The notes beneath the pieces are model-generated. The model ran no database searches. It saw nothing but the letters and a program-made list of their open reading frames with translations, and was not told where the DNA came from. Below, in pieces: positions 5,365 to 23,548 of a DNA stretch of 64,000 nucleotides. Source of the stretch: Sulfurimonas sp. (GTDB taxonomy: Bacteria; Campylobacterota; Campylobacteria; Campylobacterales; Sulfurimonadaceae); contig NZ_JBFHGL010000001.1 of the NCBI RefSeq assembly GCF_041583195.1, positions 124,001 through 188,000 on the forward strand, given 5' to 3'. Made by a program: the position numbers and the translations under genes. Position 1 is the first letter of the stretch. Every line of letters starts with the position of its first letter.

Positions 5365-6630
5365 TTATAGTGCTTGATAAGCTATGTCTGTTCTTAGTTT
5401 TTTACCTGCATAGTGAACTTGTCCACATCTCATATATGCTCTATCTCTAGCTTCTTTAATCGTATCACCAAGACCCACGCACACTAATACTCTTCCGCCG
5501 TCTGCATAAAGCTTGTCATCTTGCATAGATACACCGGCATAAGATATATGTGTATATCTTTCTATATCTTCATGATGAGTTTCATCTAGTATGATCTCAG
5601 CAGGAGTTGAACTTCCATACGGATAATTCTCGCTTGCCATTACAACACCTACTGCATATTGCGAAGAGAATTCAACTTTAATCTCATTAAGTCTGTTTGT
5701 TGCTGCTTTTAAGAACATATCTGAAACACTTGAAGTCATAAGTGGCATTAGTATTTCACACTCTGGATCACCAAAACGTACATTGAACTCTAGAGTTAAA
5801 GGTTCACCGTTTACAACCATAATACCTATGAAAAGTACACCTTCAAAAGGTGCACCCTCTTTTTGCATACCATCTAGTGTAGGGCGAATGATTCTGTCTT
5901 TAACTTTTTGGTAAAGTGTCTCATCAACAAGTGGAGTTGGAGCATATGCACCCATACCACCTGTATTTGGACCCTCATCATTATCCATTAAACGCTTGTG
6001 ATCCTGTGCAGCAGGTAGAAGAATATAGTCTTTACCATCACACACAGCAAACATAGAAAGTTCATATCCGTCTAAGAACTCTTCAACGATCACTTTAAGT
6101 CCTGCATCACCGAAACTTTTCCCACTTAACATTTCAGATATAGCAACTTTTGCTTCATCGTGATTTTGTGCAATAATAACACCTTTTCCACCACAAAGCC
6201 CGTCTGCTTTAACAACGATTGGAGCTGTCAATGAATCTGCAAATTTAAATGCCTCTTCAATTGAAGATGTTTCTATATATTTTGCAGTTGGGATATTGTA
6301 TTTTGCTAAAAAGTTTTTCATATAAACTTTTGAACCCTCTAGTTGTGCAGCTTCTTTGCTTGGTCCAAAAATTGTAAGCCCTTGTGATTTAAAAATATCT
6401 ACAACACCATCAACGAGTGGAGCTTCAGGACCTACTATTGTTAATTCTATATTGTTTTCTTTTGCATACTCAGCCAGTTCATTATAATCTTTAATATTTA
6501 AATTTGTACCTAAATTATTTGTAGCGCCATTACCAGGCTGAAAAAAAAGTTCGTGTTGTTCGTCTTCGTTTGAAATAGCTCTTGCAATAGAATATTCGCG
6601 TCCACCTGAACCAAGTATCAAAATTTTCAT
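5365..6630 (-). CDS. purD: Phosphoribosylamine--glycine ligase (GAR synthetase)
   Basis: PurD makes glycinamide ribonucleotide from phosphoribosylamine, glycine and ATP, the second step of de novo purine synthesis. The frame stays open to 6687, but the family N-terminus [19 protein letters not shown] begins at the ATG at 6630, which has an AGGAAA ribosome binding site. The 19 upstream residues would be encoded in the region next to the structured RNA, so I start at 6630 (421 aa). ATP-grasp features are clear: [25 protein letters not shown] and the metal/ADP-binding segment [12 protein letters not shown]. Only about 30 nt separate the start from the T-run of the upstream RNA gene, so purD is probably transcribed by readthrough from that RNA's promoter. 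Confidence 0.95.
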
Positions 6631-6661
6631 AAATTTTCCTGTGAATTTTTTAATTGAAATG

Positions 6662-6861
6662 AAAAAGCCCGAAAGACCGACTTGCAATTGGTTCGGTTCT
6701 CAAGGCCGAATTTGGGCGAAGAGAGAACTTTATAAAGGCGGCAGAATCTCAGTAGAACTAACTACCTCCAACGATAATACCGGCACACAAAAGTTCTAGT
6801 AATTCGCAAAGTGAATATGTAGAACCCTCATTTGTGCAAATATCGAGCCTTTCAGACTATT
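6662..6861 (-). ncRNA. ssrS: 6S RNA candidate (structured RNA upstream of purD)
   Basis: This non-coding stretch of about 200 nt has a TATAAT box (6868-6873) just upstream and a T-run (6662-6665) at its end. By eye the two ends pair over a long distance. AGTCTGAAAG (6858-6849) pairs over all ten positions, with wobbles, with CTTTCGGGCT (6675-6666); further in, TTGCA pairs with TGCAA and GGTTCT with AGAACC. An apical stem TAGAACT (6798-6792) with AGTTCTA (6759-6753) closes the far end. Between them lie two large unpaired strands, one carrying a small AUUC/GAAU hairpin. A long closing helix, open central bubble and apical stem in about 200 nt is the architecture of 6S RNA, which mimics an open promoter and sequesters sigma70 RNA polymerase. 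I recall, but cannot check, that epsilonproteobacterial 6S RNA lies next to purD. tmRNA, SRP RNA and RNase P signatures are absent. Confidence 0.72.
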
Positions 6862-6867
6862 AATATA

Positions 6868-6873
6868 ATTATA
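6868..6873 (-). promoter_or_regulatory. -10 box of the structured RNA / purD unit
   Basis: TATAAT on the minus strand within GTATAATTATATTAATAG. The predicted transcription start is about 6858-6861, exactly where the long 5'-3' helix of the RNA begins. No clear -35 is seen; upstream is A/T-rich. Confidence 0.7.
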
Positions 6874-6896
6874 CACAATAAAATCAAAAAACAATA

Positions 6897-8144
6897 TTAA
6901 CTTTTTTTGATAGTTATCTTAAAAACTGCTCCGTTATTTTCGTTATAAGCCTCTATAGTTGCAGACTGCGCATCTAATATTTTTTTTGCAATACTTAGTC
7001 CCACTCCCATACCGCCTTCAGGCTTATCTGATACAAAAGGTTCAAAAAGATCATCAACAATATCTTCAGAAATTCCACCGGCATTGTCTATAAATTTAAT
7101 CTCAATATATGAGTTAACTTCAGATATCTCTATACTTAACTTTCTATCATCATAATTTGGTTTCTTTTTTAACGCATCCAAAGCGTTATTAATTATTATG
7201 ATCCATGCTTGTTCTAATCTTTGTTCTTCAACGTCTGCCAAATATTCAAATCTATTTTTTGAGCTCTCTAATGTAAATTCTTCGCCATTTATATATATTT
7301 TACAGAGATGTTTAGAGTTGTTGTGTGCCATTATGAGTGCAGTAATCAATGTTGAATATATATTAATTCGTTTTAACTCAACTTTTGTATGTTGAGACAT
7401 TTCACGCATTGATTCAACTATTGTTGAAATTCTATCTATACCAGATTGTATATCTTTAATATCTTCCAAAATTTGCTCTTTTGATTGATAATCATCAGGC
7501 AGATCTTCAAGATCCATTTTAACCATCTCAATATTCCCTTTAACGTATGTTAAAGGGGTGTTAATTTCATGGGTGATACCTGCAGCCAGCTGACCGATAG
7601 CTGTAAACTTTACATTGGCTAATTGTTCCTGTTCGTGTTGGATCAGTATCTCTTTGTTTTTTTCACTCTCTTGATGTACACTCCATTGCAGTTCATTCTC
7701 ATGTTTTTCATGTTCTGTGATATCTATCATTATACAAACATAACCAACATAACTTCCATCTATGTTTATAGCACTTTTATAAAATTCATAAACTTTTGGT
7801 TTTTGTGATTTTAAAGCAAATATCTCTTTGTAATGAATACTATCTTTTTTTAATAGCTGAGCATCCATCTCGTGATGCAGGATATATAAAGTCTCTTGGA
7901 TACTGTTTGTAGTGTGTAGAATGTCTTCTTTTTGTTTGTTTATTAAATCAAGAAAAGCTCTGTTACATTCTATATACTTACCTTCCTTGTCTTTAGCAAA
8001 AAAAGGAACTGACAGGGAATTGGAAAGTCTGTTAAAACTATTTAAGTTATTTTGTAGTTTATGTATCGTTTTATTTTTATTATCAAGTTTATACAATAAG
8101 TAAAATATAAACAATAATGATAAAAATAAGATTAGATATAACAT
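6897..8144 (-). CDS. PAS-domain sensor histidine kinase
   Basis: A 415-residue kinase: an N-terminal membrane anchor (about residues 2-20, LYLILFLSLLFIFYLLYKL) and a PAS domain (about 40-145, including VPFFAKDKEGKYIECNRAFLD split by the fold). A coiled-coil follows, then HisKA with phospho-acceptor His192 (AAGITHEINTPLTY) and a HATPase domain with an N box, DNAGGISEDIV and GGMGVGLSIAKKIL. It is the last gene of a minus-strand operon, 9 nt after the response regulator gene and downstream of the CZB chemoreceptor gene, so the regulator at 8154-8513 is its likely partner. The signal is unknown. If the chemoreceptor and kinase share an input, zinc or oxidant sensing is a possibility, but that is inference from the neighbour only. 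Confidence 0.85.
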   Translation of the reverse strand: MLYLILFLSLLFIFYLLYKLDNKNKTIHKLQNNLNSFNRLSNSLSVPFFAKDKEGKYIECNRAFLDLINKQKEDILHTTNSIQETLYILHHEMDAQLLKKDSIHYKEIFALKSQKPKVYEFYKSAINIDGSYVGYVCIMIDITEHEKHENELQWSVHQESEKNKEILIQHEQEQLANVKFTAIGQLAAGITHEINTPLTYVKGNIEMVKMDLEDLPDDYQSKEQILEDIKDIQSGIDRISTIVESMREMSQHTKVELKRINIYSTLITALIMAHNNSKHLCKIYINGEEFTLESSKNRFEYLADVEEQRLEQAWIIIINNALDALKKKPNYDDRKLSIEISEVNSYIEIKFIDNAGGISEDIVDDLFEPFVSDKPEGGMGVGLSIAKKILDAQSATIEAYNENNGAVFKITIKKS

Positions 8145-15251: not shown

Positions 15252-15659
15252 AGTAAACCTCAATTTTCAAAACTTTCAAAAGTGAAGTGCATAAAAAGAA
15301 TACAATCACTTTTTACTCCGCCAGTTCAAAAGATGATTAACTTTGCATATTTTAAACAAGATACGCTATTTTTTGTATTCAATCATCCAGCCGGCAAACA
15401 AGAGTTTGATAATAGTATAGAAAATATTAAAAGCGCTTTAAAGTTCCATATGCCCGATGAATGTAGTGATACAACTGTTTCCGATATAAAAGCATTTGTA
15501 ACCCATACTCCTAAAATAAAACAAGAAGCACCAAAAGTTGTACAACAAACATATAAAGAGCGCTCTAGCGGAGAGTTTGAGATAAACATAAAAAACAAAG
15601 AATTAAATGATCTAGTTAAAAGTATCAGGGATATCATAAAAAACAATGACACTAAGTGA
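15216..15659 (+). CDS. DUF721/DciA-like hypothetical protein
   Basis: A 147-residue protein starting at the ATG at 15216 ([11 protein letters not shown]). The frame stays open upstream to 15147, but those codons hold no conserved-looking sequence, and a TATAAT box directly precedes 15216. The segment [20 protein letters not shown] followed by helix [16 protein letters not shown] matches the alpha-beta pattern of DUF721 (DciA) proteins, which load or interact with the replicative helicase in bacteria lacking DnaC. The match is weak. The end overlaps uvrC by 14 nt, so the two are probably co-transcribed. The C-terminal half is polar and probably flexible. Function remains open. Confidence 0.6.
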
Positions 15660-17445
15660 AACTATACAACAGTTACCACCTTCTTCAGGGATATACCAGT
15701 ATTTTGATGAAAACGGTAAACTCCTATATGTAGGTAAAGCAAAAAACTTAAAAAATCGTGTAAAAAGTTATTTCTCTTTTACACCTGATCTTAGACCAAG
15801 TTCAAATCTCTCATACAGAATAGAGAGTATGATCAAACAAACAGTCTCACTCAACTATATAGTTGTAAATACCGAGCATGACGCGCTAATACTCGAAAAC
15901 TCGCTGATCAAACAGCTAAATCCAAAATATAACATCTTACTGAGAGATGATAAGACATATCCGTACATCTACATAGATTACTCAGAGAAATATCCGAGAT
16001 TTGATATAACAAGAAAAATAATCGATGCCAAAGATATAACTTATTTTGGTCCATATTCAGTTGCAGCCAGAGATATTTTAAACTCTATATATGAACTTTG
16101 TAAGCTTGTCCAAAAAAAAAGATGCTTAAAATCAAAAAAACTTTGTTTGTACTATCAGATCGATAAGTGTCTTGGTCCTTGTGAAAACGACATACCAAAA
16201 GAGATTTATCAAAAAGAGATAGATAAAGCGATAAAACTAATAAAAAACAAATCAAAACTAACGCAGGAACTCTCAAAGAAAATGGAGTTTTATGCAGAGG
16301 AATTAAGGTTTGAAGAAGCCGCAGAATTAAGAGACAGATGTGAGAGAATCTCCAGAAGCGAGATTAAAAGCGATATTGATTTTGCATCAAATGAAAACTA
16401 CGATATTTTTGCTATAGCACACAGTGAAAAGAGATTGGTAACACTTAAAATATTTATGCGTAACGGAAAAATAATTTCATCATCCCATAATGTTACAAGT
16501 TTAAATAACGGTTTTGACAAGGATGAGATTTTACATAGAGTTTTAGTTGAATATTATCAAGATAAACCACCGATCATTGCACCTATACTAATTCAAGAAA
16601 GTTTTGAAGATCAAGAAGATATTGAAAACTATCTGAGTGATATTTTTAAAAAGAAAGCCCAAATTATCGTCCCACAAAAAGGAAAGAAAAAACAACTTAT
16701 AGATTTAGCTGTTTTAAATGCCCTAGAGATTTTAAAAAATGATAAAAAAACAGTTAATATGGAAACGGAAGAGAAGGTTGCAGAACTGTTCAGATTAGAA
16801 AGAACTCCAGAACGTATAGAATGTTTTGACAATTCACATATGGCAGGTATGGCTACTGTTGGAGCTATGGTTGTATATGAGAATGCAAAATTTGATAAAA
16901 AATCTTACAGGACTTATCATTTAGATGCAAAAGATGAGTACTCACAAATGAGGGAGACTTTATCAAGGCGAGTTAATAGTTTTGAAAAATCTTCTCCACC
17001 TGATCTATGGGTACTAGATGGCGGAGCTACACTTTTAAAGTTAGCACTTGAAATTTTAGATTCAAACGGTATTAGTTTAGACGTAATAGCAATTTCAAAA
17101 GAGAAAGTAGATGAAAAAGCTCATCGTGCAAAAGGCAAAGCTAACGATATTATATATACAAAAGATGATGTGTTTAGGTTACAACCAAGTGATAAAAGAC
17201 TTCAATGGGTTCAAAGATTAAGGGATGAAGCACATAGATGTGCAATAAACTTTCATAAGAAAACAAAACTTAAAATGGATCAAGAGAGTAAACTGTTAAA
17301 TTTAAATGGAATATCACAGGCTAAAATAAAAAAGCTGCTTAATCATTACGGTACATTTGAACAAATAAAAATATTATCACATGAAGAAATAAGCGCTATT
17401 TTAAATGAAAAAGATGCAAATATTATAAAAAATCTATACAAATAA
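15646..17445 (+). CDS. uvrC: Excinuclease ABC subunit C
   Basis: UvrC makes both incisions flanking a lesion in nucleotide excision repair. The 599-residue protein has the N-terminal GIY-YIG nuclease ([20 protein letters not shown] with KNRVKSYF), a cysteine-rich segment ([21 protein letters not shown] region) and the UvrB-interacting UVR helix ([15 protein letters not shown]). The RNase H-like endonuclease core ([20 protein letters not shown], then [11 protein letters not shown]) and C-terminal helix-hairpin-helix motifs ([20 protein letters not shown]) complete it. All parts are present. It overlaps the DUF721-like gene by 14 nt. Confidence 0.96.
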
Positions 17446-17516: not shown

Positions 17517-17930
17517 ATGACTAAAGTAACCCCTATCAATGAAGAATATGTTCACGCAGGTAAAGCGATAATATCTCAAACAGATCTTTCTGGTAAAATC
17601 ATATATGCTAACAGTGCTTTTTATGAAGCTTCAGGCTATGCCAATGAACAAGTCATAGGTTCAACCTATGATATTATCCGTCATCCAGACATGCCTAAAA
17701 TAATTTTTGAAAAACTATGGCATTCAATAAATGATGGACAAGCTTGGACAGGCCTTGTTAAAAACTTAAGAAGTGACGGTCGATACTATTGGGATGATTT
17801 AAGTGTACTACCTGTAAAAAACGATGATGGGGAAATTGTAAGCTTTATATCGGTTTCAAGACAGGCTTCGAAAAAAAATATTCAAGAAAACGAAGTTCTG
17901 TATCAAAAAATGCTAAGTTCAGAAGTATAA
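17517..17930 (+). CDS. Single PAS-domain sensor protein (Aer-type PAS)
   Basis: A 137-residue protein that is almost entirely one PAS domain: ISQTDLSGKIIYANSAFYEA, YDIIRHPDMPKIIFEKLWHS and WTGLVKNLRSDGRYYWDDLS are typical of the Aer-type PAS found in energy-taxis receptors, which bind FAD or heme. No output domain or membrane segment is present. It is the first gene of a four-gene signalling cassette, 16 nt before the HPt protein gene, with an AAGG ribosome binding site. I infer it supplies a redox input to the downstream kinase by direct contact; the ligand cannot be determined from sequence. Confidence 0.82.
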   Translation: MTKVTPINEEYVHAGKAIISQTDLSGKIIYANSAFYEASGYANEQVIGSTYDIIRHPDMPKIIFEKLWHSINDGQAWTGLVKNLRSDGRYYWDDLSVLPVKNDDGEIVSFISVSRQASKKNIQENEVLYQKMLSSEV

Positions 17931-17946: not shown

Positions 17947-19875
17947 ATGATTATATATAATAACAACAGAGAATTTATAGGAATAGATGAAGAGAACTTA
18001 AAATCATTAGGTTATCCAAGTTTTACATCTTTATTATCGGAAGCTGCAGATTTTGCAGATCTATTTGTAAAAGTACCAGGTCATGTTCATAACTTTAAAC
18101 ACGTTCACTGGATAGACTTTATTCTTTGTGCTACAGATAAAAATTCGTCTAAAGCTATAATACATGCTAACGGAAAAAGTTTTAGCTGTGTTCTAGATAT
18201 AAAAACGATCTACTTAACTTCAGCACCTACAAAACAGTCATATAATATAACCTTAAACAACTTAAGAGCATTGAGTGCTGAAGAACTTCAAGGCATATCA
18301 GGTGAACTTCAATCAAGACCTGCTCCTGTAGCAGCTCCTGTAACACCTGCACCTATTGTAGAACAAGAGCCTGAAGAGGAAGAAATTGAAGTAAAAACTC
18401 CAACTGAAGCTAGTCAAAGTGATGAAATAGATATTTCTGAGGAAATAGATATTGATAAATTACCTGAACTAGAAACTTCAGCAGTTGAACAAGATCCATA
18501 TGAAGTGGAAGATGAATTTAATCTAGATGTATTTGAAGTGAGTGATGAAGATTTAGAAAAAATCGGTGAAGCTGAAACTACTGAAACTCAAATGACAAGG
18601 GAAGATCTTCACGAAAACCTTCATGAACATGTAGCTATCGATGAAGACTTAGAAGAAACTATAGAAGAAGAGATACCTGAGATTGTTGAAGTTGAAGAGG
18701 ACTTAAGTCTAGCTACTGATGAAGTGTCTGCTGAGGGTGAAGGCGAAGAAGATGAATATGTTTTTGACATCCAAGAAACTGCAGATGCTTTAGAGATGGA
18801 TGTTGCAACAATTCAAGACTTCGTTAACGATTTCATTGATCAGGCTAAAGACTTTAAACCTAAACTATATGAAGCTGTAGAACATGATGATATGATTGAG
18901 TTAAAATCTCTTTCACACCAATTAAAAGGTGTTGCAGCCAACCTGAGAATCCATGATGCCCAAGATATACTAATTCAAATAAATAAAGCTGAAGATTTCA
19001 CACATTCTACTCAAGACTTAGATAAATTCTATAGAATTATTTCAAAGCTAGCAGGAGAAGAACCTGAAGTTAAAGCTAAAGTAGCAACTCCTACTCCTGC
19101 GGTAGAAGATCCTATTATAGAAGAACAGCCGGCTGATATTAATGAAGAAACTCTTGATATAGATGATATTGATACACCTGAAATAGATGAAGATGCTTTA
19201 GAAATCAATGATGACGAAGATGAAGCTCTTGAAATAGCTGATATTGATACACCTGAAATAGATGAAGATGCTTTAGAAATCAATGATGACGAAGAAGATG
19301 CTCTTGAAATAGCTGATATTGATACACCTGAAATTGATGAAGATGTTTTAGAAATCAATGATGACGAAGAAGATGCTCTTGAAATAGCTGATATTGATAC
19401 ACCTGAAATTGATGAAGATGTTTTAGAAATCAATGATGACGAAGAAGATGCTCTTGAAATAGCTGAAGATGATTTTGACCTATTAGATGAAGAACAAAAT
19501 GAGCTAATAGGTGCTAATCAACAAAATGATATTTTAGATGAGATTGAAGAACTTAAACCTGCACAGACATATAATAAAATGAGTGTAGCTAACGAGATTG
19601 GGTTAGATGAAGAGAGCTTTAACGAACTATTTGAAGATTTTTCAAATGAAAGTAAAGCACTTGTTTTAGAAGCTCAAGAAGCTATAGAAGCAAATGATGC
19701 ACAAAAATGGCAACATGCTGCTGTTAAGCTCAAAGGTATGAGTGATAATATGAGAGTTACCTCTTTTAAATCTGATATAGAAGCTCTTATAACTATTCAA
19801 GACAGTTCAGATGCCCAGAAATCACTAAATAAAATCAATGAAACTCTCTTAAGCATAATAGAGACAAAGGATTAA
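17947..19875 (+). CDS. Dual HPt-like scaffold protein with acidic tandem-repeat linker
   Basis: A 642-residue protein. Residues 1-115 form an unrecognised N-terminal domain ([20 protein letters not shown]). A Pro/Glu-rich linker follows, then an HPt domain with phospho-acceptor His324 ([15 protein letters not shown]). A very acidic linker holds four 25-residue repeats ([17 protein letters not shown] type, 19165-19464), and a second HPt-like domain lies at about 560-640. In the second domain the residue aligned with the phospho-His is Val593 ([15 protein letters not shown], His590 lies three earlier), so it is probably inactive. It sits 1 nt upstream of the hybrid kinase gene. Role inferred: phosphotransfer hub between kinase and response regulator, with the repeats as a flexible spacer. 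I know no named family with this layout. Confidence 0.75.
19165..19464 (+). repeat. Four tandem 75-bp repeats inside the HPt gene
   Basis: Units at 19165-19239, 19240-19314, 19315-19389 and 19390-19464, each 25 codons. Units 3 and 4 are identical over all 75 bases; units 1 and 2 differ from them at a few positions. The length is a multiple of three, so copy-number change would alter the acidic linker without shifting frame. The near-identity suggests recent expansion. Confidence 0.95.
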
Positions 19876-19876
19876 T

Positions 19877-22800
19877 ATGCAATTTGGACTTAAAAATAGA
19901 CTTAGATTAATATCTCTTTTTCCAATTCTAATTGTTTTTTCTTTTACAAGTTTTTACGTTTACGACTCTTATATGAGCTTAACTTCATCTAGTAAACTTC
20001 AGAGTAAACTATCTAAAAATAAACTTCTGAATGATTTAGTAACTAATATATCTCGTGAACGTGGTATGACAGTTATGTACTTGGGTAGTTTATCTAACAA
20101 TACGCTAAAGTCATTAAAAAAACAAAGAACGCTTGTCGATAAAAACTATGCTAAATATATATCTCATATACAAAGTGATGAAAGTTTACATAATCATCAA
20201 AGTGGCTCTTCTCGTAACTGTAGTACATGTCTTGACATAGACTATATAAAAGATGCATATATATTAATTAAAAAAACAAGAGCAGATGTTGATTCAAAAA
20301 GTGCAGACTTCGAGCAAGTTTATAACGATGTTTACGGTAAAATTTTAAAAACAACGATCTCAAATATATCAAAACTTTCTATAGAGCAAAACGATCAGAC
20401 AATTAATGAGCTTGCAGGTGTATATATAAGTCTTGTTCAGGCAAAAGAGTTTACTTCGTCTGAAAGAGATTTAATCTCTTATGCAATTGCACGTTCAACT
20501 GCATTTGAAGAGGAAGAGTTTAACTTTTGGTTATCACTCATCTCAAAAGCAGATTCATATGCATACGCTACTTTACGTGATCTAGGTCTTAAAAATCAAT
20601 TAGATTTACTTCTTAAAAATGAAGATACTAAACTTTTACTAGAAGATATAAATATTGAAAGAACAGCTATTATTTCTACAGCAGCGAATGGTGAATACGA
20701 TATTTCACCTGGTGTTTGGTTCACTATGCTTTCTGAAAAAACGAATATATTATCAAATGCTGAAGAAAAAATCTTAAATGCAATGGATAGTAGAGCAGAA
20801 GAAATTAAAGCCAGTGCATTAGAGTTCCTTACTATCACGGTTACAACTTGGATAGTATCAGTTTTACTTGGAATTCTGGGATATATTTTATCTAATGAGA
20901 TTGAAAAAAATATCAAAAACCTTGAGCACGTTTTACAAAATGCTATTGATGAGGATGAGGATACTGAAGCTTCTGAAATTGACCTTCAAACTTCAGCCGG
21001 TACTGAAAAAGCGTATCAACTGTTAGAGAAAATTATTGAAAGAACAAAACGCGATAAAATACTTGCTCAAGAGGCTAGTGAAGCTAAATCAATGTTCCTT
21101 GCAAATATGTCTCACGAAATACGTACACCACTTAATGGTATCGTTGGTTTTACGGAACTTTTAAAAGATTCTGGACTTCAAGAAGAGCAATCAGAGTTTG
21201 TTGAGATCATTGAAAAATCATCTGAAAATCTACTTGAGATTATCAATAATATTCTTGACTTATCTAAAATCGAATCTAATAAAGTTGAGATTGAAGACAT
21301 TGCATTTAACCCTATCGAAGAGTTTGAAAGTGCTGTTGAAGTTTATTCAGTTCGTGCTTCAGAGAAACAAATCGATGTTGGTTGTTACATAGACCCTGCA
21401 CTTGAATTTCCTGTTAAAGGGGATCCTACTAAGATTAAAGAGGTACTTATTAACCTTCTATCAAATGCTGTTAAATTTACTTCAAACTCTGGTTCAATTA
21501 ATGTTGAAATTAAAAAAGAACCATGCGAAACTGAAGGTAAAACTAGAATTAGATTTGAGGTACAAGATAGTGGTATCGGTGTTACCAGTGAACAAAAAGC
21601 TAAGATCTTTGAAGCATTCAGCCAAGCTGATACATCTATTACAAGAAAATACGGTGGTACTGGTCTTGGTTTAACTATTTCATTCAGATTTATTGAACTT
21701 ATGGGTGGTCAGCTTGATTTAGATTCAAAACCTGGTGAAGGTACTACATTCTTCTTTACGATTGAGCTTGAAGAGATTGAAACTCTAAATGATTCAACAC
21801 AAGGTGCATTTTCTAATATAAAAGCACTGATCTTAAGAGATGATCATAAGTCTAAAAAACAAGATGAGAACCTTGAAAAATATCTTGACTACTATGGAGT
21901 GAAGCATAGTGTATTCTATAATATAGACGAAGTTCAAAATAAAGATGATTATAACTTCTTGTTTGTCGATTACTCATATACATCAGACGAAGAACTTGTG
22001 CACTTTGGTGAGCTTTCACCATCTATGATTGTACTGACAAAATCTTCATTTATGAAAAAGATAGAGTCTATTGGTGCGAACATAGGAAAAACTTTATATG
22101 AACCGTTAAATATTTCTAAGGTTAAAATAGCACTTGAGAGTTATGATGCATCAATAGTTGAGAAAAAGAAAATCCAAAAAGCAAATCGTAAGAAATTTGC
22201 AGAAGGAAGCAGTAGGTTTGATGCAGACGTTTTAGTAGCAGAAGACAATATTATTAACCAAAAACTTATCAAAAAGACTCTTGAAGACTTAGGTATGAGA
22301 GTAACTATAGCTAATAACGGTTTAGAAGCTTTTGCAAAACGTAAAGACGGTAAATTTGATCTTATGTTTATGGATATCCAAATGCCTTTCTTAGACGGTA
22401 CGGAATCAACTGCAGAAATATTAGAATATGAGCAAACAACAGGTGAAAACCATATACCGATCGTTGCCCTTACTGCAAATGCACTAAAAGGAGACCGTGA
22501 ACGTTTCTTAGCAGCAGGACTAGATGAGTATACTACAAAACCTCTTGTGCGCTCAGAGATAATCAACATTTTAAATCACTTTCTTGTAGATAAAATAGTT
22601 GATGCTAATAATAATGTGAAAAAAGATGAAATAAAAGAGGAACCTGCACCTGTAGAAGAAGTTGTAGAGGCTCCAAAAACAGAAGAGACTCCAGAGATAG
22701 AAGAAACTACAGAAGTTGCTGAAGTTCCTGAAATAGAAGAAGTTCCTGAGATTCAAGAGATTCCTGAAATAGAGGAAAGTACGGTTGAAGAGGTAGAGTA

Positions 22801-23164
22801 CAATGCAGATATTCTATTGGCAAAGAAAAGTATGTTTGAAACAAAACTTTATGCAAAAGTGTTCAACTCTTTAGGTTATAGCTACAAAGATGTTCATTCA
22901 ATTGATGATCTCAAAGATGAAATCTCTAACAATAACTATAAAATCATCATGTATGATAAACAATTAAGCAACATCTCTTTAAAAGAGGTCCAAGAAAATG
23001 TTAAAATGTCAAATGAAAAAGCAAACATTGATACGAAGATTGTTCTTATTAACGATCCATCTATGTTAGAAGATGAAGATGATAAAAAGTTTGTAGACGA
23101 TACTATTAAAAATGTAATTAATAAAGATTTAATCAGATTAGTTTTTGAAAAATATATAAAATAA
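19877..23164 (+). CDS. NIT-domain hybrid sensor histidine kinase with three receiver-like modules
   Basis: A 1095-residue inner-membrane kinase. A first membrane helix (about 10-30) leads to a periplasmic NIT domain ([20 protein letters not shown]), a module tied to nitrate/nitrite sensing, then a second helix near 318-340. HisKA follows with His413 ([13 protein letters not shown]) and HATPase (GSLG-type boxes: [25 protein letters not shown]). Next come a degenerate receiver (about 640-750), an intact receiver with Asp near 833 ([13 protein letters not shown]) and a Glu/Pro-rich spacer. A last receiver-like module (about 975-1095) lacks the acidic pocket (ILLAKK instead of DD). It is coupled to the HPt gene (1-nt gap) and to a response regulator gene (9-nt gap), forming a full phosphorelay. 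Confidence 0.9.
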
Positions 23165-23173
23165 GGATGAACA

Positions 23174-23548
23174 ATGTCTAAAAATATAAATGTGTTAGCT
23201 GTTGATGACGATATGATCAATCTAAAGTTACTAAAATCTATGTTAATGAAAACAGGTGTAGTAAATGAAGTTGTAGAAGCAGGAAACGGTTCTGATGCTA
23301 TTGGCGTACTCAAATCAAGAGATGATATCGACTTGATACTTTTAGATATTATTATGCCTGTAATGAACGGGATAGAGATGTTAAAAGTTGTACGTGCAGA
23401 TGAAAATCTAAAACAACTTCCTATTATTGTTTTAACAACGGATGAGACTAAAAAAGGTGAAGCATTAGAATTTGGTGCAAACGGCTTTTTAATGAAACCT
23501 ATTCGTGCTGATGATCTTAAAGCAAAAATAGATACTGTGATAGTCTAA
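23174..23548 (+). CDS. Single-domain response regulator
   Basis: A 124-residue receiver with all catalytic residues: acidic pocket VDDD near residue 10, phospho-Asp in LILLDIIMPVMNG near 56, Thr in IIVLTTDE and Lys in FLMKPI. No output domain. It is the last gene of the PAS-HPt-kinase cassette and probably the final phosphoacceptor, signalling by protein contact, for example to the flagellar motor or another enzyme. Its stop codon lies within a palindrome shared with the convergent nosL-like gene. Confidence 0.88.
   Translation: MSKNINVLAVDDDMINLKLLKSMLMKTGVVNEVVEAGNGSDAIGVLKSRDDIDLILLDIIMPVMNGIEMLKVVRADENLKQLPIIVLTTDETKKGEALEFGANGFLMKPIRADDLKAKIDTVIV

Follow-up and report, generated by a model that had tools for sequence, protein, structure and literature searches.

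What is the role of a repeat array that lies in frame between two HPt folds of one protein? We examined this question for P0001, a protein encoded in a 64,000-nucleotide stretch of Sulfurimonas sp. DNA (the window; contig NZ_JBFHGL010000001.1, positions 124,001 to 188,000 of the forward strand). Our proposal is that the array is a recently expanded acidic tether between a live HPt and an HPt without its His, and that the length of this tether tunes a phosphorelay; as a whole, we give this proposal about an even chance of being right. The features of the gene are as follows.

17947..19875, + strand: gene of P0001, 642 aa, with a PAS-like domain, acidic linker 1, an HPt, acidic linker 2 with the array, and a putative pseudo-HPt
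17947..18324, + strand: predicted PAS-like N-terminal domain, residues 1-126, AlphaFold pLDDT 86.6, with invariant HNFKHVHW
18757..19056, + strand: HPt1, residues ~271-370, acceptor His324, Pfam Hpt (PF01627) score 30.9 bits against a cut-off of 24.6
19165..19464, + strand: four in-frame 75-bp tandem units of acidic linker, residues 407-506, pLDDT block means 36-50
19564..19872, + strand: HPt2, putative pseudo-HPt, residues ~540-642, Val593 at the acceptor position, assigned from fold and profile

The repeat array in linker 2

TRF placed the array at 19144-19466, with a period of 75, 4.3 copies, 96% matches, 0% indels and a score of 576. The next-best array elsewhere in the window scored 72, and codon-shuffled controls reached at most 85 for the gene and 136 for the linker (n=500 each), in agreement with an earlier note on this DNA that had described four in-frame 75-bp tandem repeats at 19165-19464. 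The units start at 19165, 19240, 19315 and 19390. Units 3 and 4 are identical and the others differ slightly, as that note had stated: we counted two base differences between units 1 and 2, two between units 2 and 3, none between units 3 and 4, and four each when unit 1 was compared with units 3 and 4. Where adjacent units share a residue they almost always share its codon as well (23 of 23, 23 of 24 and 25 of 25 cases), whereas full codon agreement would be expected by chance with a probability of only ~10^-7.5 to 10^-7.9, given the codon usage of 12 window ORFs. The same codons at residues common to the units indicate that the DNA itself was duplicated. The near-identity of the units supports the claim that the array is young, and the differences between units point to growth in steps, in which the duplication that produced units 3 and 4 probably came last.

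Each 25-residue unit contains 13 acidic and no basic residues, consistent with the earlier description of an acidic linker, and its later part reads [A/V]LEINDDE[DE/ED]ALEIA. The net charge per residue of linker 2 is -0.41 in the window protein, compared with a family mean of -0.26. Without three of the units linker 2 would be 99 aa long, close to the family median of 104; with them it is 174 aa. All four matches of the 75-bp unit in the 2.38-Mb genome fall within the array. We rejected a mobile element as the source of the unit, as there is no further copy in the genome and one 20-base pattern, searched as an exact match only, did not occur in viral contigs. Shared ancestry with the 69-bp unit of the nearest relative (L002) was also set aside as borderline, since 9 of 300 codon shuffles scored equally high.

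HPt1, HPt2 and the partner kinase

AlphaFold, run with an alignment of 64 sequences, gave three confident domains in P0001 (residues 1-123, ~275-368 and ~543-639), joined by linkers with block means of pLDDT between 36 and 67. The longest run below 50 covers residues 413-491, and the low values over the 100 residues of the array are consistent with disorder, of which they are no proof. In its predicted structure the N-terminal domain looks PAS-like. The top Foldseek matches for residues 1-126 were all PAS/LOV or PAS-containing chains, although the best E value was 4.6e-3 and none was at or below 0.001; the best VIA match had a Z of 8.5, an rmsd of 3.2 and 91 aligned residues, and no Pfam family was assigned to residues 1-126 of the window protein. 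A profile search of the PDB returned SLITRK1 as its sole match (E 0.0097), which we discarded as weak and unconvincing. At an E of 1e-6, the N-terminal domain with HNFKHVHW occurs in 65 of 298 sampled Campylobacterota-type genomes.

Pfam found the Hpt family in two stretches of P0001, the better at residues 292-347, within HPt1. The HPt1 region aligns with HPt chains such as 3myf_B (Z 12.6, in a fold class where helical bundles score high easily). To compare orthologs, we reduced 97 loci to 81 distinct proteins. HxLKGVA is found in HPt1 of 79 of the 81, the other two (L087 and L096) being broken or cut off, and the acceptor His is present in all 79 proteins that extend that far. HPt1 thus combines the helical-bundle fold, a score over the cut-off and the acceptor His of PF01627. 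In L087 the scaffold gene is split at ~6001-7700 into two ORFs (one of 297 aa and a second match), either because the gene is broken or through a fault of assembly.

The array does lie between two HPt folds, as the earlier note had proposed, but in 77 of 78 Sulfurimonas-type orthologs the second of these has no acceptor His (the cut off or broken L019, L087 and L096 being excluded from this count), so that the array joins one HPt to a pseudo-HPt. The fold and the homology of HPt2 are well supported: VIA aligned it with HptB of P. aeruginosa (7c1i) at Z 13.8, rmsd 2.4 and 19% identity over 104 residues, and hhalign matched it to HPt1 at 98.4%, compared with 0.3% for a reversed control. Its Pfam Hpt score (21.2-21.3 bits) falls under the cut-off, and 48 of 64 HPt2 copies match the family at E <=0.05. 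At the acceptor column of the 78 proteins we found I (29), L (25), V (6), M (4), T (3), S (3), R (2) and, once each, N, Q, Y, A, K and His. Lacking the acceptor His, HPt2 is classed as a pseudo-HPt and not as a phosphotransfer domain. The neighbouring LKGMSxNMR is strongly conserved even though the acceptor is lost, suggesting that this surface is under selection. Judged from the alignments, HPt2 is a conserved pseudo-HPt, presumably dead through loss of the His with its fold kept, and P0001 would be a phosphorelay protein of Sulfurimonas-type bacteria with the architecture PAS-like/HPt/pseudo-HPt.

Eight more proteins of the genus (from 11 loci, L115-L125, with three duplicates) and nine from outside the genus but within the family (L106-L114) have no acceptor His in HPt2; 16 of these 17 columns were read from motif matches and that of L107 (Ser) from its sequence. 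All nine proteins from the other genera have the His in HPt1. A single ortholog of the 78 (L007/L063) carries a His in HPt2, with the codon CAT; it is nested among His-less relatives and may therefore have regained this residue. Six more distant loci were also examined. L098 has a His-less HPt followed by a His-bearing one, the only HPt of L100 is His-less, and in L099 a His-bearing HPt precedes two weak HPt-like stretches, of which the one that was scanned gave no Pfam Hpt match. L103 has a His-bearing HPt without a match to the N-terminal domain, and no HPt was seen in L101 and L102. From these sequences, dead HPts in relatives of P0001 look old, but the order of domains varies.

P0001 is encoded in an operon with the order uvrC-like gene, PAS protein, P0001, NIT-type hybrid kinase and CheY-like regulator, and this operon is conserved among the 81 distinct orthologs. 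Its other genes and features are listed here.

15646..17445, + strand: P0005, which we take from its sequence to be uvrC-like; a match lies upstream of the scaffold gene in 78 of 81 loci
17517..17930, + strand: PAS protein P0003, directly upstream of P0001; 76 of the 81 loci have a match beside the scaffold gene
19877..23164, + strand: NIT-type hybrid histidine kinase P0002, with NIT, HisKA, HATPase_c, receiver, acidic linker and putative pseudo-receiver
22666..22777, + strand: imperfect 18-bp in-frame repeats in the acidic linker of the kinase, detected by TRF
22802..23161, + strand: putative pseudo-receiver, C-terminus of P0002, with KK replacing the acidic pair and the Asp kept
23174..23548, + strand: CheY-like response regulator P0004; at least 20 of the 81 loci have a 72-87% identical copy after the kinase, a lower bound because each locus contributed just its nearest match and many loci are too short

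The kinase is found downstream of the scaffold gene in 78 of 81 loci, and the three without a match end at the scaffold gene. Its last domain is related to its own receiver (hhalign 86.3%, E 4.8e-6; reversed control 0.1%), while no Pfam family, PF00072 included, matched 22802-23161 at E <=10. Across 45 kinases this domain has K at the first acidic site in 45 and at the second in 43, N at the Lys site in 43 and the Asp in all 45; in the kinases' own first receiver, by comparison, all 44 of 44 sequences conserve the five residues, the first acidic site being E. Receiver homology together with the missing conserved residues makes the domain a pseudo-receiver by the definition given in the excerpt of PMC12632262 used here, which asks for the loss of one or more of the five. 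In L069, L074 and L088 the kinase match begins at about residue 285-309 of P0002, leaving the NIT sensor unmatched, and the match to the PAS gene is also absent in L069 and L088. From these three loci, the input modules seem exchangeable.

Linker length, recurrent arrays and motifs across species

Among 77 closed orthologs (one genome per species, with L060 also excluded), linker 2 ranges from 30 to 208 aa, with a coefficient of variation of 0.31 compared with 0.19 for linker 1. The window's linker 2 is the fourth longest of the 77 when measured to a fixed distance from the C-terminus, and the fifth of 78 with a profile-based boundary. Across the whole family linker 2 is therefore the more length-variable linker, while among 23 close pairs the two are similar, with mean changes of 10.6 aa for linker 1 and 11.6 aa for linker 2.

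The window array is one of many recurrent in-frame arrays in the same linker across species. With the window included, 18 of 78 proteins have TRF rows scoring at least 50 in linker 2, seven have them in linker 1 and one has them elsewhere, and arrays cover 7.5% of the residues of linker 2, 1.4% of linker 1 and 0.04% elsewhere. The period is divisible by 3 in 37 of 38 rows. Under stricter boundaries, linker-2 arrays occur in 17 of 77 orthologs, a distribution that takes a minimum of 14 changes on a quick, domain-only tree; at a score of at least 100 there are seven of 77, with six changes on the same tree. Besides the window array, long arrays are found in the nearest relative L002 (69 bp x 2.4), L004 (105 x 2.4) and L032 (126 x 2.3). 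In a sister pair with 91.7% identity in the domains (L057/L093), duplications of 24 bp and 18 bp account for 14 of 15 extra residues. A further species (L125, genome G309) has a linker-2 array of 84 bp with 99% match, a score of 856 and six visible copies, interrupted by a run of Ns, with an m2-like motif (see below) in each unit.

For loci L031 onward, arrays are also more frequent within the genes than in their flanks (0.22 versus 0.06 per kb), and three of the four flank arrays with a period of at least 30 (L051, L059 and L061) lie within the acidic linker of the kinase. With boundaries that we set ourselves, this kinase linker contains TRF rows in 10 of 45 kinases, and six rows lie elsewhere in the kinases. 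Individual arrays in it measure 54 bp x 3.4 in L051, 54 x 1.9 in L059, 36 x 2.1 in L061 and 9 x 7.8 in L075; in L090 the periods are 17 and 20, which are not multiples of three.

A serious rival to the tether is neutral drift, according to which length is unconstrained, acidic low-complexity codons often slip, in-frame changes are tolerated and the array itself is functionless. Periods that vary by species and are almost always multiples of three fit this explanation, as do the arrays in linker 1 and in the kinase linker. The tolerance of such a wide range of lengths and the similar change of linker 1 among close pairs also fit drift and give no sign that length matters, and the close-pair comparison speaks in particular against a special tuning of linker 2. 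Against drift, linker 2 is the richer in arrays, although it may just be more prone to slippage, and the two motifs described below are retained in most distant linkers, which indicates that linker 2 is partly constrained. Taken together, we regard drift as a real possibility that is somewhat improbable.

In a broader reading, both partners of the relay would have a live and a dead copy of their own domain (HPt and pseudo-HPt in the scaffold, receiver and pseudo-receiver in the kinase), joined by acidic linkers that grow repeatedly by in-frame tandem duplication. The dead copies would bind one another or the live domains of the partner, and the number of repeats would set the local concentration or the count of docking motifs, so that gain would be tuned by DNA slippage. 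Covariation of the two dead domains was rejected, as L007, with a His in HPt2, keeps KK in the pseudo-receiver of its kinase. This single uncoupled case speaks against coupling of the dead domains. It is this case, together with the close-pair comparison, that leads us to hold the paired reading unlikely while giving drift the standing stated above.

Two short motifs recur within linker 2. The first, m2 (DDFVLSFKDD-like), is present in 56 and the second, m3 (DVPDKIEIPELADDDF-like), in 41 of 70 more distant orthologs, at thresholds that shuffled linkers pass in 1.2% and 0.07% of cases, respectively; because the matrices were refined on the same sequences, these counts are somewhat generous. As most distant orthologs retain at least one short motif, plain acidic filler was rejected as a full account of linker 2. 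If each unit carried a short docking motif, the array might add binding sites beyond length alone. Consistent with this idea, in three of the five long arrays the unit holds a motif with p <0.004 (L125, m2, 0.0007; L004, which was excluded from motif training, m2, 0.0002; L002, m3, 0.0037), and [DE]x(1,2)LE[IV]x(0,1)[DE][DE], a motif defined only after viewing the sequences, is found in seven of seven linkers of the window's clade and two of 71 others, five times in the window linker. The unit of L032, however, matches neither motif (p 0.24 and 0.36), and the window unit itself is weak, with p values among 12 tests of 0.35 for m2 and 0.57 for m3 in the A version of the unit and of 0.026 and 0.68 in the V version; the whole linker 2 of the window gave 0.12 and 0.40. 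Copying a random quarter to third of the linker would often catch a motif, so the three of five units are no proof of selection for motif number. With the matrix test against it, motif multiplication was rejected as the main explanation of the window's unit, and we keep it as a rival of low probability.

A true copy number above or below four is the most improbable alternative: the longest exact self-repeat, 120 bp, means that a short-read assembly may have miscounted units, and Ns interrupt the L125 array, but units 1, 2 and 3 can be told apart, the contig that holds the array is 346 kb long, and linker-2 arrays also occur in genomes of one or two contigs (L014 in G010 and L004 in G008).

A possible tunable tether

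We consider a tunable tether plausible. The array would represent the recent expansion of a flexible acidic tether through replication slippage or recombination. The hybrid kinase, via its receiver, would phosphorylate His324 of HPt1, which would then serve the CheY-like regulator. On what we see as the simplest reading, the pseudo-HPt may retain its receiver-binding face and act as a non-phosphorylatable anchor or decoy, and the linker would govern the frequency with which the live HPt encounters a receiver docked on its dead counterpart. Each extra 25-residue unit would alter reach and charge with the frame intact.

A pseudo-HPt is known in plants, where AHP6, a separate single-domain protein, is thought to act without phosphotransfer. 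HPt2 resembles AHP6 in having an HPt fold without the acceptor His, but the pseudo-HPt of P0001 is bacterial and fused to a live HPt via a variable linker. The fold of HPt2 is also like that of HptB of Pseudomonas aeruginosa (7c1i), which is titled a histidine-containing phosphotransfer protein, whereas HPt2 has Val at the acceptor position. For the array, the closest comparison is tolA of E. coli, in which, according to the excerpt of PMC3477136 used here, in-frame repeats in the connecting segment number 8 to 16 among 234 isolates and their number alters stress tolerance. The P0001 array resembles this tolA-like class in that in-frame tandem units encode a segment joining domains. The tolA units, as given in the same excerpt, are 15 or 18 bp long, Lys/Ala-rich and helical and belong to an envelope protein, whereas those of P0001 are 75 bp long, acidic and disorder-like, belong to a phosphorelay protein and are known here at the species level only.

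The excerpted part of PMC12632262 describes bacterial pseudo-receivers whose working it calls a mystery. The last domain of P0002 is like these in missing several of the five conserved residues, and differs from those covered there in that its Asp is always kept and its operon also encodes a conserved pseudo-HPt. The same source reports that the His is absent in 0.9% (90 of 10,312) of sampled Hpt domains. As the window HPt2 falls under the Pfam cut-off, counts based on Pfam may have missed copies of its type. In the open-licence literature we found no paper joining Sulfurimonas with an Hpt domain, none on inactive or degenerate bacterial Hpt, and none that treats repeats and their copy number together with linker length, disorder and histidine kinases.

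Overall, these bacteria appear to have, genus-wide, a dead HPt next to a live one in a protein whose partner kinase has both a dead and a live receiver, and nature provides them with tethers of 30 to 208 residues. The roles of the dead docking domains and of tether length would thus be directly testable with purified proteins.
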